DNA of 45,181 nt from an uncultured Erysipelotrichaceae bacterium. GTDB lineage: Bacteria; Bacillota_I; Bacilli_A; Erysipelotrichales; Erysipelotrichaceae. The stretch is from contig CADABS010000020.1 in the NCBI GenBank assembly GCA_902786245.1, positions 1-45,181 of the forward strand, in the 5' to 3' direction. Shown here in pieces: positions 33,088 to 38,942 of the stretch. The stretch's first letter is position 1; the number at the start of each line of letters is the position of its first letter. Under the pieces are notes generated by a model, which was not told where the DNA came from, did not search any database, and was given only the letters and a program-made list of their open reading frames with translations. A program made the translations under genes and the position numbers.

Positions 33088-34485
33088 ATGGAAAAGAAAC
33101 CCGTTAAAATCGTAACGATCGGCGGCGGCTCCAGCTATACGCCGGAACTCATGGAAGGCTTTATCAAGCGCTATGAAGAACTGCCAATCAGAGAGATCTG
33201 GCTCTGCGACATCGAAGACGGCAGGGAAAAGCTCGAGATCGTCGGTGCCATGGCCCAGCGCATGTGGGATGCCACACCGTATGATGTCAAGGTCCATCTG
33301 ACATTGAACCGCAGAGAAGCTCTGCCGGATGCGGACTTCGTCACGACCCAGTTCCGTGTCGGTCTGCTCAATGCCCGTATCAAGGATGAGCGCATTCCGC
33401 TGTCCTATGGCATGCTCGGTCAGGAAACCAACGGTGCCGGCGGCATGTTCAAGGCATTCCGTACGATCCCGGTCATCCTCGGCATCATCGAAGATATGAA
33501 GGAACTCTGCCCGAATGCATGGCTGATCAACTTCACCAATCCGTCCGGCATGGTCACCGAAGCAGCGATCAAATGGGGCGGCTGGAAGAAGACTGTCGGT
33601 CTGTGCAATGTGCCGGTAGGCGCACTGCTCAAAGAACCGCCGCAGTTCGGTCTGACCGAGCGTGAATGCATTCATCAGTTTGCAGGTCTCAACCATTTCC
33701 ATTATCACAGAGTATCGGATCAGGCCGGCAATGACCTGACCGACAAGCTGATCGACAATATGTATGATCCGACCGTCGATGACGGAACACCTGCCAATAT
33801 CTTTGAATGCAAGTTCCTCAAGGATCACCTCAAGCAGATCCAGCTGATTCCGTGCGGATACCACCGCTATTACTACATGCACGATGAAATGCTCAAGCAT
33901 GCCATCGAAGAATTCAATACGGTCGGCACCAGAGCCCAGCAGGTCAAGCAGACCGAAGCGGAACTGTTCGAACTGTACAAGGATCCGAATCTGAACTATA
34001 AACCGGAACAGCTCTCCAAGAGAGGCGGCGCGCATTACTCTGATGCGGCATGCGAATGCATCTCTTCCATCTACAATGACAAGAGAACGCATATGGTCGT
34101 TTCCACCCAGAACAACGGCGCGATCGCCGATCTGCCGTATGACTGTATCGTTGAGATTTCTTCGATCATCACCGGCAGAGGACCGATGCCGCTGACATGG
34201 GGCAGCTTCCATCCGTCTGAAAGAGGCTGGGTCCAGATCATGAAGGCCATGGAAGAATGCACGATCGAAGCAGCCATCACCGGCAACTACGGTCTGGCAC
34301 TGGCGGCGTTCGAAATGAACCCGCAGGTCGAACACGGCAAGGTTGCCCAGACAGTCCTGGATGAACTGCTTGTTGCCCACGAGAAGTATCTGCCGCAGTT
34401 TGCGGATAAGATCGCCGAGCTCAAGGCAGCCGGTGTCTATCCGAAAGATCCTGTCGTCCAGGATCTGCTCGCAAACGGATTATGA
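33088..34485 (+). CDS. Glycoside hydrolase family 4, 6-phospho-beta-glucosidase-like
   Basis: NAD- and metal-dependent GH4 enzyme that splits phosphorylated disaccharides taken up by PTS. 465 residues. NAD fold IGGGSSYTPELMEGF (about 11-25), LCDIEDG, TTQFRVGLLNARIKDERIPL, QETNGAGGMFKAFRTIPV, INFTNPSGMVTEA, GLCNVPVG (metal-ligand Cys about 173) and AGLNHFHYHRV (metal-ligand His about 202). These match the 6-phospho-beta-glucosidase branch (LicH/CelF-like) better than alpha-glucosidases. AAGGAG is 13 bases from the ATG, a long spacing. No PTS genes are adjacent, so the inducing sugar is unknown. Confidence 0.92.
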   Translation: MEKKPVKIVTIGGGSSYTPELMEGFIKRYEELPIREIWLCDIEDGREKLEIVGAMAQRMWDATPYDVKVHLTLNRREALPDADFVTTQFRVGLLNARIKDERIPLSYGMLGQETNGAGGMFKAFRTIPVILGIIEDMKELCPNAWLINFTNPSGMVTEAAIKWGGWKKTVGLCNVPVGALLKEPPQFGLTERECIHQFAGLNHFHYHRVSDQAGNDLTDKLIDNMYDPTVDDGTPANIFECKFLKDHLKQIQLIPCGYHRYYYMHDEMLKHAIEEFNTVGTRAQQVKQTEAELFELYKDPNLNYKPEQLSKRGGAHYSDAACECISSIYNDKRTHMVVSTQNNGAIADLPYDCIVEISSIITGRGPMPLTWGSFHPSERGWVQIMKAMEECTIEAAITGNYGLALAAFEMNPQVEHGKVAQTVLDELLVAHEKYLPQFADKIAELKAAGVYPKDPVVQDLLANGL

Positions 34486-34534: not shown

Positions 34535-35587
34535 ATGACATTTCAGATACGCAATGACAAACTGGAGAAATACGAAGGACGTGATACGCATGTAGCGGTT
34601 CCGGAAGGAATCGTTTCCATTGCGGATTACGCTTTTTACGGTGCTGCAGACATGAAGCAGATCACGCTGCCTTCCTCATTGAAGGAAATCGGATCCAATG
34701 CCTTCTATGACTGCGAAGCCCTGCAAGAAGTACGGATGCCCGATAGCGTAGCGTATATCGGCAGTGCACTGTTTTCCCGCTGCCATGGACTGAAGAAGGT
34801 CATACTTTCGGATGCGCTGACATCGCTGCCGAAGATCCTGTTCTATCAATGCGATGCTCTTGAGGAAATACAGTTCCCGCGGAATCTGAAAAAGATCTCC
34901 CGGGCCTGTTTCCAGCAGGCCCATGGTCTGAAGAATGTGCTTCTGCCCGACAGAGTCGAAGTCATTGAAGAAAATGCCTTCGATGACTGCACTGGCCTGG
35001 AACAGATCCATCTTCCCGCGCATCTGAAGACACTCGGAAACAATGTATTCTATCAATGTTCTTCCCTGAAAGAACTGAATCTGCCGGAATCTCTTGTAAA
35101 CATCGGAACCGGTGCTTTTGAGACAAGGGGAAGGCTGCGGCTGATTGTTCCGGAAGGTCTGCATATCCATCCGAAGATGCTCGACAACAACTGGAATATG
35201 TACTGGAACTTCGGCTCCAACGGCCGCTATAACGGAAAGAACGAAGAGAATTACAATCTCGTCAGGTCCGTTATTCCCGATGTAACGCTGCGGGAATGGA
35301 AGCCGGCTGCCCGCTGTATTCTCTGTATCAACTATCTGGAATCCGGCAGTACGGACAATCCGGAATATGACACCTGGATCAAAGACAATCATGCAGTCCT
35401 GCTGGATACATGCCTGAAAGAAAAGCGCTATGATGCGCTGTATGCGGGATGTAAGAGAAATGCATTTCCCCCGGAGAGTATTTCCAATGCCCTGATGCAT
35501 ATACAGGATCCGGCTGTCAAAGCAAAGATCATGGCCCTGGATCATGCGAAAGAAGAAAGTCTGGAAGATCTGTTTGATCTGCTGTAG
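34535..35587 (+). CDS. Cytoplasmic BspA-type leucine-rich-repeat protein
   Basis: 350 residues. About eight LRR_5 (BspA/Treponema pallidum type) repeats of 22-23 residues span roughly 20-215, with the pattern ITLPSSLKEIGSNAFYDC, VRMPDSVAYIGSALFSRC, IQFPRNLKKISRACFQQA, IHLPAHLKTLGNNVFYQC, LNLPESLVNIGTGAFE. The remaining 135 residues are helical and Cys-containing, with repeats of ARCILCINYLE type. There is no signal peptide, unlike most BspA-type surface proteins, so it is likely a cytosolic binding protein. The start has no real ribosome site (AAAGGG only 2 bases away); TATAAA at 34524-34529 would place transcription at about the ATG, so a leaderless message is possible. It directly precedes VWA and MoxR genes. 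Confidence 0.85.
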   Translation: MTFQIRNDKLEKYEGRDTHVAVPEGIVSIADYAFYGAADMKQITLPSSLKEIGSNAFYDCEALQEVRMPDSVAYIGSALFSRCHGLKKVILSDALTSLPKILFYQCDALEEIQFPRNLKKISRACFQQAHGLKNVLLPDRVEVIEENAFDDCTGLEQIHLPAHLKTLGNNVFYQCSSLKELNLPESLVNIGTGAFETRGRLRLIVPEGLHIHPKMLDNNWNMYWNFGSNGRYNGKNEENYNLVRSVIPDVTLREWKPAARCILCINYLESGSTDNPEYDTWIKDNHAVLLDTCLKEKRYDALYAGCKRNAFPPESISNALMHIQDPAVKAKIMALDHAKEESLEDLFDLL

Positions 35588-35601
35588 AAAAGAGAAAAGA
35601 C

Positions 35602-37035
35602 ATGGATGAAGAACTGCAGGCGGTCGCTGAAGACATATTCAGAGATGTCATCGCCTCATTGACATTGCGGCTGCGGTTTATGGACATTGCCCTGAACCGT
35701 TTCATCTTCGTACCGGATGCGGTCGATTACCGCTGTGACGGCAGGTTCTTTCATTATTCTCCGGTCGCCGTGATCAAGACCTTCCGCAATGACCGCAATG
35801 CCCTGGCAAGGGGATATCTGCACAGTGTCCTGCACTGTGTTTTCCAGCATCCGTTCTTTGCGGAAAACCAGAGGCCTTCGCTCTATGATCTTGCCTGCGA
35901 TATCGAAACCGAAAACGTGATCCTATCGCTTGGCATTGAGAGTCTTGAAAGCAGAAAAGATGAAGACATGCGCAGGGCGATTGCCTGGCTGCGGGAAAGG
36001 GTACCCGTCTTTACCGCCGCCTCGATCTGCCGGTATCTGGAAACAATCGAGAATGACCGGGTGAAATGGATGAGCCAGATCTTCCGCTTTGACATGCATG
36101 AAGACTGGTATCATCTGCGCAATGTCACCGGATCAAGAGAACAGCTCTATGGCGAAGAAAACCGCGATGATCCGGCCGCTGCCGGAAACAATCTGTTTGA
36201 AGGGGCATCGCACGATACCGGTGAAAAGAGTCCGCTGCAGGGAAAAGAAGAAGATGCGCTGATAGAGAAGACGGCAAACCGTCTGAAAGACTGGCAGGAG
36301 ATTTCCGAGAAAATCGAAATGGATCTCGAACTGTTCCAAAAGGAAAACGGAAATACCGAAGCACTGGTACAGTCGCTGAAGCAGCTGCACCGGGAGAAAT
36401 ACGATTACGGTACGTTCCTGAAAAAGTTCATGCGCAGCGGCGAAAAGATGCAGATCAATGATGCCGAATTTGAGCCGATTTTCTATACCTACGGACTTTC
36501 GCTCTACGGCAATCTGCCGCTGATCGAAGCGCTGGAAACCAAAGAGACAGCCGGGATCAGGGAACTGGTCATTGCCATCGATACATCGGGTTCCGTGCAG
36601 GGAGATATCGTTCAGTCCTTTCTGCAGAAAACCTATGATCTGCTGATGCAGAGGGAACACTTCTTTGGCAGGTATACGGTATATATCATACAGTGCGATA
36701 TGGTCATCCGCGATATCGCCGTGATCGACAGCAGGCAGAAGTTTGAGGCCTATATCCAAGATACCGGGATCAAGGGTCTTGGCGGAACGGATTTCCGGCC
36801 GGTATTCCGCTGGATCGATGAACAGATCCGGAGCGGTGCCATGCGCCGTCTGCAGGGACTGCTGTATTACACCGACGGCGACGGAGCCTATCCGGGACAG
36901 AAACCGCCGTACAAGACCGCATTTCTGTTTCCGCCCGGAAACAAAGACATAAATGTACCGCCATGGGCAATCAGATACAATCTGGAAGAAGGAGAAACCG
37001 CACATGCATATTCAGGACGCGAAGAATCAGATTAA
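35602..37035 (+). CDS. VWA-domain protein with degenerate metallopeptidase-like N-terminus
   Basis: 477 residues. The N-terminal part (about 1-160) has LHSVLHCVFQHPFF (about 72-85), the DUF2201-type position where peptidases carry HExxH; here the Glu is Ser, so catalysis is unlikely. The centre is charged and partly coiled coil. The C-terminal von Willebrand A domain has an intact MIDAS: DTSGS (about 326-330), the Thr in GLGGTDFRPVF (about 392-402) and Asp in YYTDGDG. Such proteins pair with MoxR-type ATPases as substrate adaptors. ATG 35602 has only a weak GAGAAAAGA site. It overlaps the ATPase gene by 32 bases. Confidence 0.85.
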   Translation: MDEELQAVAEDIFRDVIASLTLRLRFMDIALNRFIFVPDAVDYRCDGRFFHYSPVAVIKTFRNDRNALARGYLHSVLHCVFQHPFFAENQRPSLYDLACDIETENVILSLGIESLESRKDEDMRRAIAWLRERVPVFTAASICRYLETIENDRVKWMSQIFRFDMHEDWYHLRNVTGSREQLYGEENRDDPAAAGNNLFEGASHDTGEKSPLQGKEEDALIEKTANRLKDWQEISEKIEMDLELFQKENGNTEALVQSLKQLHREKYDYGTFLKKFMRSGEKMQINDAEFEPIFYTYGLSLYGNLPLIEALETKETAGIRELVIAIDTSGSVQGDIVQSFLQKTYDLLMQREHFFGRYTVYIIQCDMVIRDIAVIDSRQKFEAYIQDTGIKGLGGTDFRPVFRWIDEQIRSGAMRRLQGLLYYTDGDGAYPGQKPPYKTAFLFPPGNKDINVPPWAIRYNLEEGETAHAYSGREESD

Positions 37036-38458
37036 AAACGCAGTGCTGGCATACAGCGCCAGAGATCCCTACGGGCATCTGCGCATCCCCGTGAACAAGC
37101 AGAGACCGGTATTCCTGGTCGGTGCACCGGGTATCGGAAAAACCGCGATCGTTGAGCAGATCGCGCAGGAACTCGACCTTGCCTATGTTTCCTATTCCAT
37201 GACCCATCATACAAGGCAGAGCGCCCTGGGTCTGCCGTATATCACGGAAAAGCAGTACGGCGGGGAAACATACAGCGTATCGGAATATACGATGAGCGAG
37301 ATCCTTTCCAGCGTCTATGACGAAATGGAGAAGACGGGCAGAAAGCAGGGCATCCTGTTTCTCGATGAGATCAACTGCGTCTCCGAGACGCTGGCACCGT
37401 CGATGCTGCAGTTTCTGCAGTACAAGACATTCGGAAGACACCGGGTGCCGGACGGCTGGATCGTCGTCACGGCAGGCAATCCGCCGGAATACAACGACGC
37501 GGTCAGAGAATATGACATCGCCATGCTCGACCGTCTCAAGAAGATCGAAGTGGAACCGGATTATGAAGTATGGAAGAACTTTGCGGCAGAGACCGGCATC
37601 CATCCGGTGATCCTTTCCTATCTCTCGATCCGTCCCAATCATTTCTACAAAGTACAGGCAACCGTGGACGGCAAGAGTTTTGTCACGGCCCGTTCCTGGG
37701 ATGATCTGGGACAGATGATCACGCTGTATGAGGAGATGGGCATTCCCGTGGATAACAAGCTGATTCCCCAGTATATCCAGGATGAAGAGATCGCCCGCGA
37801 CTTTGCCAATTATTATGATCTCTACCGCAAATACCAGTCCGATTACAGACTTCCCGAGATCCTTGCCGGCAGAGCCCCGCAGGAGATCATCGAAAGGGCA
37901 AAGAACGCACCGTTCGATGAGCGTCTCTCCCTGATCTCCCTGATCATTTCTTCGCTCACGGATACCCTGGGCAATCTGATGATCCGGGAAGATGCCATGC
38001 GCAGAGTCCTGCTCGATGTCAAAGGAAAAGACATCGATCCCGATCTGCTCGATGAACTGATCGAACAGTACAATGCGGAAAGCGAAAAGACAGGCACTGC
38101 GGCAGAAGTGGAAACCGCATCCGAAGCCGGTCTGATCGCGGAATCGCTGGTCATGGAAGCAGATCCGAAAGACGCATTGAGAACGATGATTGCAGATCTC
38201 AAAGAAGACATGGAAAGCGGCAGTGCCGTCCTGGACAATGTATTTACGTTCTTCGAGGACTGCTTTGCCGGAAAATCGCAGGAGATGCTTATACTGGTCA
38301 GCGAACTGACCGTCCGCAAGCTCGTCTCGAGGTTTATCTACAGCCATGGCTGTGAGAAATACCAGATGTACAATGAACAGCTGCTGTTTGAAAAGACAGG
38401 CTCGGCGATCGATGAGCGGATCGATGCTCTGCATCTGCTGGAAATCGAAGAGGAATAA
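37004..38458 (+). CDS. MoxR-type AAA+ ATPase
   Basis: 484 residues. AAA+ core with Walker A GAPGIGKTAIVEQ (about 39-51), the MoxR-like VSYSMTHHTRQSALGLPYI loop, Walker B GILFLDEINCV (about 112-122), sensor 1 VTAGNPPEYN, and MLDRLKKIEVEPDY arginine-finger region. The C-terminal half is helical and acidic, perhaps for contact with partners. ATG 37004 has AAGGAG upstream and overlaps the VWA gene by 32 bases; the in-frame 36953 start is less likely. MoxR-VWA pairs act as chaperones or metal-insertion machines for specific clients; the client here is unknown, but the LRR protein is a candidate. Confidence 0.88.
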   Translation: MHIQDAKNQIKNAVLAYSARDPYGHLRIPVNKQRPVFLVGAPGIGKTAIVEQIAQELDLAYVSYSMTHHTRQSALGLPYITEKQYGGETYSVSEYTMSEILSSVYDEMEKTGRKQGILFLDEINCVSETLAPSMLQFLQYKTFGRHRVPDGWIVVTAGNPPEYNDAVREYDIAMLDRLKKIEVEPDYEVWKNFAAETGIHPVILSYLSIRPNHFYKVQATVDGKSFVTARSWDDLGQMITLYEEMGIPVDNKLIPQYIQDEEIARDFANYYDLYRKYQSDYRLPEILAGRAPQEIIERAKNAPFDERLSLISLIISSLTDTLGNLMIREDAMRRVLLDVKGKDIDPDLLDELIEQYNAESEKTGTAAEVETASEAGLIAESLVMEADPKDALRTMIADLKEDMESGSAVLDNVFTFFEDCFAGKSQEMLILVSELTVRKLVSRFIYSHGCEKYQMYNEQLLFEKTGSAIDERIDALHLLEIEEE

Positions 38459-38461
38459 ATC

Positions 38462-38908
38462 ATGGCAGAAATCACCAGCAGTGTACAGATCGTGCTGCCC
38501 CAGCATTGCAACGGGTATGCAAAGCCGCGTCTGTTCGGAGGACAGCTGATGACATGGATCGATGTCATCGCAGCGGTTGCCGCAAGAAGATTTACCGGAT
38601 GTCCGGTGACGACGCTGTGCGTTGACAACCTGACATTTCTGGAAGCGGCATATCTCAACGATACCGTCGTCCAGGAGGCATGCGTTACCTGGAGCGGCAG
38701 AACATCCCTGGAAGTCAGAGTCGATACCTATGTCGAACGGCTGAACGGCGAAAGAAAAAAGATCAACCGGGCATACTGTGTATTCGTAGCTCTGGATGAC
38801 AATGATCAGCCGTATGAATTCGGACGTAAATTCGTACCGGAAACCGAAGAAGAAGCAGATGAATACGCAGCCGCAGAAGCGCGCAGATGGATCCGCAAAA
38901 ACCGTTAG
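38462..38908 (+). CDS. Hotdog-fold acyl-CoA thioesterase
   Basis: 148 residues of the BACH/YciA-type hotdog family: PQHCNGYAKPRLFGGQLMTWIDVIAAVAARRFTG holds the N-x-x-x-x-x-x-FGG-x-hydrophobic-x-x-x-D catalytic helix pattern, and the second half is the antiparallel sheet ending in a basic helix. It hydrolyses acyl-CoA thioesters, substrate length unknown. It starts 3 bases after the MoxR gene (GAGG at 9 bases), so it is on the same transcript, though a functional link is not obvious. Confidence 0.87.
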   Translation: MAEITSSVQIVLPQHCNGYAKPRLFGGQLMTWIDVIAAVAARRFTGCPVTTLCVDNLTFLEAAYLNDTVVQEACVTWSGRTSLEVRVDTYVERLNGERKKINRAYCVFVALDDNDQPYEFGRKFVPETEEEADEYAAAEARRWIRKNR

Positions 38909-38916
38909 AAACAGGC

Positions 38917-38942
38917 AAAGCCGGCAGAAACGCCGGCTTTCT
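38917..38942 (+). terminator. Terminator of the LRR-VWA-MoxR-thioesterase unit
   Basis: AAAGCCGGC (38917-38925), loop AGAAAC, GCCGGCTTT (38932-38940), then CTT. Marks the end of the core region. Confidence 0.85.

Follow-up and report, generated by a model that had tools for sequence, protein, structure and literature searches.

The leucine-rich repeat (LRR) protein encoded beside a VWA protein and a MoxR-type AAA+ ATPase in an uncultured Erysipelotrichaceae bacterium is supported, by comparison of gene neighborhoods, as a dedicated and conserved partner of the MoxR-VWA pair. We consider a MoxR-VWA remodeling machine with a dedicated, exchangeable LRR adaptor to be the best explanation of this arrangement, at a probability of roughly 0.55. 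The window, i.e., the whole 45,181-nucleotide stretch of DNA analyzed here, comes from a 2.75-Mb genome, in which it forms contig 20, and its cassette consists of the BspA-type LRR, VWA, MoxR-type AAA+ and thioesterase genes in that order:

33088..34485, + strand: GH4 glycosidase gene (PF02056/PF11975)
34535..35587, + strand: LRR adaptor candidate, 350 aa (PF13306, 187.6 bits; cut-off, 27.7)
35602..37035, + strand: VWA protein, 477 aa (PF09967/DUF2201 at residues 322-461, 47.5 bits)
37004..38458, + strand: MoxR-type AAA+ ATPase (AAA_5, 38.6 bits; bpMoxR, 28.0 bits; cut-off, 27)
38462..38908, + strand: hotdog thioesterase (PF03061, 4HBT), probably co-transcribed
38917..38940, + strand: terminator-like hairpin 3' of the thioesterase gene, by consensus match only

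Organization of the cassette and its proteins

The four genes are separated by 14 bp (LRR-VWA), -32 bp (VWA-AAA+) and 3 bp (AAA+-thioesterase). The mechanical open reading frame (ORF) call for the AAA+ gene begins at 36953; the start is the ATG at 37004, preceded by AGGAG, so that the VWA-AAA+ overlap is exactly 32 bp. The single gene string with this overlap, as described in the initial annotation, was thus confirmed by the ORFs, the start codon and Pfam. The upstream neighbors of the cassette are cmk-, der- and gpsA-like genes (so called from their sequences), an HD-domain gene and the GH4 gene; these neighbors are housekeeping genes. A Pfam scan of the window proteins returned the LRR, DUF2201 and AAA/thioesterase families only, with no VMAP, iSTAND, FtsH or beta-propeller domain.

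The LRR protein contains eight 23-residue BspA-type repeats (LRR_5) at about residues 15-200, a conserved loop of low model confidence at about residues 217-245, and a C-terminal helical module at about residues 255-345 that is followed by the tail DLFDLL. Its AlphaFold model has a mean pLDDT of 89.4, with a strand period of 23 residues. No signal-like segment was seen on inspection of the N-terminus, which fits the cytosolic location proposed earlier, and no DUF4132 domain was detected by Pfam scan. The MoxR-type protein has the Walker A motif GAPGIGKT, the Walker B motif GILFLDEIN and the signature THHTRQSALGLP; GAPGIGKT, GILFLDEIN and TAGNP are conserved in the MoxR alignment, and the Walker A, Walker B and sensor 1 elements of an AAA+ core are therefore all present in the window protein.

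Linkage of the LRR gene to the VWA-MoxR pair

A search of 316 genomes of the order found the VWA protein in 45, and the LRR gene adjoins the VWA-MoxR pair in 47 of the 49 loci with enough flanking sequence, a hand count that excludes loci cut by a contig end and in which the LRR_5 match of L086 is below the Pfam cut-off. Flanks were read and doubtful neighbors scanned with Pfam; most of the relatives are draft metagenome assemblies, and human fecal contigs filed as phage records were included. The linkage spans two families of the order as well as these fecal contigs. Only L087 and L117 lack an adjoining LRR gene, with none nearby in L117. The fecal contigs (L112-L118; MT837836 and similar) are scaffolds deposited as "Bacteriophage sp." and flagged UNVERIFIED; they resemble bacterial chromosome fragments, carrying, e.g., Mur-ligase and sortase genes.

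In the window's clade, as in several more, the LRR gene is upstream of the pair; it is between the VWA and MoxR genes in L090, L098 and L102, and downstream in L085, L091 and L092, while in L086 and L088/L089 it is fused to DUF4132 (a weak match in L088). These positions change within a single VWA clade (100/100 support). Because the linkage survives re-ordering of the genes, common inheritance of one gene block does not suffice to explain it. The check in relatives that the initial annotation had set for its dedicated LRR partner was thereby run, and the LRR gene stayed linked while gene order varied. Chance adjacency is also unlikely in the window genome, since it has only three LRR_5 matches, within two genes.

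Phylum- and class-wide profile searches recovered members of the order only, in a GTDB phylum that excludes most Clostridia. A contig scan with a single protein returned close relatives only, the nearest named ones being Erysipelotrichaceae metagenome assemblies; a viral scan gave one distant match, and the plasmid matches were generic MoxR pairs. At L133:3214-5536, a generic pair whose HExxH motif is intact is immediately preceded by two LRR_5 genes without the tail. As that genome has 12 LRR_5 matches, chance is possible there, and adjacency alone can mislead. Generic HExxH VWA-MoxR pairs of other Bacillota (L105, L106, L127, L129 and L130) adjoin a gene for a 1100-1250-aa SNF2/ResIII-type helicase, possibly forming a defence-like triple.

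A shared C-terminal module and tail

The partner proteins of other clades have very different LRR parts, and what they have in common is the C-terminal module and an acidic-hydrophobic tail (FDLL, FEDF, FEL, LDW and similar). A fixed tail pattern was present in 31 of 39 linked LRR proteins. Of 516 other proteins encoded at these loci, 22 had it as well (additional LRR partners and MoxR proteins are among them), and it occurred in 1 of 37 unlinked LRR_5 proteins elsewhere in the same genomes, a set that includes the LRR array of genome G102 described below. The pattern was written after the sequences had been seen, and the 37 fresh controls are therefore the fairer comparison. The tail is absent from both LRR proteins of L085 and from one LRR protein of L088/L089, and five members of the window's clade fail the strict pattern. 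Acidic-hydrophobic ends also occur on some MoxR (LLEI, LLEF, EFEF) and VWA proteins (DLEIL, HEFE).

A profile of the module was made from distant partners only, leaving out the window's clade and the array. Members of the window's clade were matched at the corresponding C-terminal position with E-values of 3e-5 to 3.7 at Z=1000, values that, like the others given for this profile, stem from small searches. The clade members outranked all 19 controls (best control E-value, 9.3); the match of the window protein itself is weak (0.11 at Z=1000), and the result is convincing only for the clade as a whole. The G102 array was matched at 1e-13 to 1e-22. In this genome, L087 is a second VWA-MoxR pair, without an LRR neighbor, and its contig carries, 66 kb from the pair, 14 tandem LRR genes with the module (mean identity, 46%), preceded by five DUF4132 proteins, four of them with DUF6273 and LRR_5:

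L162:3173-15396, L139:1296-3290 and L140/L141 (G102:C15 3-60 kb): G102 array region

In the array, the module continues into a longer acidic end, so that most members miss the strict tail pattern. Because 66 kb separate the array from the pair, we infer, rather than observe, that its LRR proteins serve L087. A TIR-domain protein gene and a Cas6 gene lie close upstream of the L087 pair (L087:2347-4741).

The LRR genes show dN/dS values of 0.06-0.24 in close pairs where dS was measurable, and their dN exceeds that of VWA and MoxR about 1.5- to 2-fold and that of GH4 roughly tenfold or more. As far as the coding sequences tell, the LRR protein is under functional constraint yet fast-evolving, with no gene-wide sign of positive selection. 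An arms race was considered as a reading of the fast LRR divergence; the gene-level dN/dS gives it no support.

A rebuilt zincin-like site in the VWA protein

The VWA protein has an N-terminal zincin-like site (H74, H78, H83, D100 and E104) and a C-terminal VWA domain with intact MIDAS residues (DTSGS, T396 and D425), of which the DxSxS, T and D are invariant in the VWA alignment. Nothing follows the VWA domain, which covers residues 322-461 of 477. At the place of the HExxH catalytic motif the window protein reads HSVLH. All LRR-linked members have the form HxxxHxxxxH...DxxxE, with the three histidines and the aspartate invariant, whereas 12 of 13 generic pairs have HExxHxxxxH...DxxxN (L104 has HQ); the LRR-linked proteins have thus lost a glutamate at position 75 and gained one at position 104, where generic members have asparagine. 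The VWA proteins of this type form one clade, and the branch dividing it from the generic ones has 100/100 support.

The initial annotation had called this peptidase-like domain dead. The loss of the catalytic glutamate stands, but the three histidines are kept and a new glutamate is fixed; judged from these alignments, the site is rebuilt, neither simply dead nor decayed. A structural or regulatory metal may be bound there, or the general base may have shifted. The AlphaFold model of the VWA protein is of high confidence over most of residues 1-165, and Foldseek with this model returned VWA-type domains only, leaving the N-terminal domain unmatched; PF13203 had no match in the window's own genome. 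In genome G040 the VWA gene is split between two frames (L088:5438-6804), and it is intact in the relative L089.

Neighboring enzymes

All 17 flanked loci of the window's clade have the GH4 gene next to the cassette (one gene apart in L075 and L076), and in L079 and L082 it is downstream instead of upstream. Neighbor comparison found no GH4 gene in L083/L084, and the distant loci likewise showed none. Across 70 genomes of the genus, 19 have both GH4 and the cassette, 46 have neither and 5 are discordant. Relative to the window, GH4 is 90-96% identical, whereas LRR (34-53%), VWA (55-63%) and MoxR (58-66%) are less so at comparable fourfold-site divergence. As a housekeeping yardstick, Der is 77-86% identical within the genus and 60% outside it; GH4 is 90-96% identical even in cassette-bearing genera where Der is only 60%, an unusually strong constraint. 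Recent transfer was considered as the source of the GH4 conservation and is not supported, given the 37-83% difference at fourfold sites.

Xanthine-dehydrogenase-family genes lie next to the LRR-DUF4132 gene and the pair in L088/L089, which recalls the enzyme-maturation roles of MoxR-VWA systems, e.g., CoxD/CoxE. The remaining cassette neighbors have no common theme. The thioesterase gene was not found by tblastn in 19 compared loci and is not conserved in relatives, in keeping with the earlier suggestion that it just rides along.

Comparison with known systems

MoxR-vWA ternary systems with VMAP, iSTAND, FtsH or a beta-propeller as third component have been described (eLife 2020, PMC7159879), and the cassette resembles them in joining a MoxR and vWA core to a conserved third gene. 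Unlike in those systems, the third component in the window combines LRRs with a helical module and tail and has no VMAP, STAND, FtsH or propeller domain, and the vWA protein has no C-terminal effector. A search of that text for "LRR" and "leucine-rich" found LRR mentioned once, and a full-text search of open-access papers found none that combines MoxR and VWA with an LRR partner of this kind. The description of the locus as a candidate new system was therefore too strong: the class of a MoxR-vWA core with a third component is already described, and what is new is an LRR protein with this module as the third component.

Generic DUF2201 and MoxR pairs share with the window the two-gene core and the HxxxHxxxxH...D frame, but they differ in the site residues given above and in having an LRR gene directly adjacent in 1 of 13 cases. 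NorQ-NorD (and CbbQ-CbbO) likewise combine a MoxR ring with a VWA partner whose C-terminal residues are important for docking; they have a known client and no LRR partner. The Escherichia coli genes yehI-yehL-yehP (DUF4132, MoxR and VWA) are like the LRR-DUF4132 fusions of L086 and L088, except that the window LRR protein lacks DUF4132 and YehI lacks the tail. Rea1/Midasin is an AAA+ machine whose VWA-type MIDAS binds a ligand protein, Rsa4 or Ytm1 (PMC6624252), although Rea1 is a single giant protein that acts in ribosome assembly.

Proposed mechanism and alternative explanations

By analogy to NorQ-NorD and Rea1, MoxR would form an ATP-driven ring and the VWA protein would be the co-chaperone that couples this ring to a target. 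The ring most likely pulls or twists the VWA protein while the LRR protein brings the target, which would be recognized by the variable face of the repeats. The conserved module and tail would dock the LRR protein to the core, at the VWA MIDAS or the ring. A plausible seat for the tail is suggested by NorD, which no longer co-purifies with the NorQ ring when its last two residues are removed (PMC13036017), or by the Rea1 MIDAS, which binds ligand proteins integrin-fashion (PMC6624252). The initial annotation had left open whether the LRR protein is a recognition subunit or a client; we prefer the former because the module and tail persist while the LRR part varies, and because 14 such genes form an array in one genome. 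A more elaborate form, which we put forward tentatively, is a zincin-like VWA co-chaperone with a repurposed site, into which interchangeable LRR adaptors are plugged via the common module and tail, one in most genomes and many in some, rather like the F-box LRR proteins of SCF ligases. A nearby enzyme may serve as the client, namely GH4 for the window's clade and, for a different clade, an enzyme of the xanthine dehydrogenase family; this is a weaker claim than that of the adaptor.

The adaptor reading was weighed against an anti-phage conflict system of the ternary type, in which the LRR protein would detect the invader and the core would set off a response. The described ternary systems have been proposed as conflict systems (PMC7159879), and the patchy occurrence (45 of 316 genomes), the expanded array in G102 and the TIR and Cas6 genes near L087 would suit this role. 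However, neither the VWA nor the LRR protein has an effector domain in Pfam, PADLOC gave weak generic AAA matches only, the window neighbors are housekeeping genes, and selection is purifying gene-wide (dN/dS of at most 0.24 where measurable); we regard such a system as improbable, if the strongest of the competitors. Somewhat less probable still is a dedicated maturation factor for a neighboring metallo- or redox enzyme, here GH4, bound by the LRR protein. The constant presence of GH4 on either side of the close-clade cassettes, its co-occurrence across the genus and the genes adjoining L088/L089 speak for it, but GH4 is 90-96% identical while its supposed binder has diverged to 34-53% identity at similar synonymous divergence, GH4 was not seen in L083/L084 or the distant loci, and the other neighbors are unrelated.

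That the rebuilt site is an active peptidase, with the general base moved from HExxH to E104 and substrates delivered by the LRR protein, seems doubtful in the extreme: the invariant histidines and aspartate and the exchange of glutamate 75 for glutamate 104 in all LRR-linked members are compatible with it, yet E104 could equally be a metal ligand. An LRR gene that merely rides along, or is adjacent by accident, is largely refuted. Some of these genomes are rich in BspA-type LRR genes, but accident would have to account for linkage in 47 of 49 loci under changing gene order, for the shared module and tail, and for a window genome with only two LRR_5 genes.

For most MoxR-VWA pairs, we know of neither the clients nor any way of choosing them. 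The loss of the catalytic glutamate together with the gain of a new one presents a clear case in which to ask whether a peptidase site has been turned into a metal switch. An LRR partner with a docking-like end would offer a handle on such pairs, with the LRR part serving to fish for the client and the tail to map the docking.
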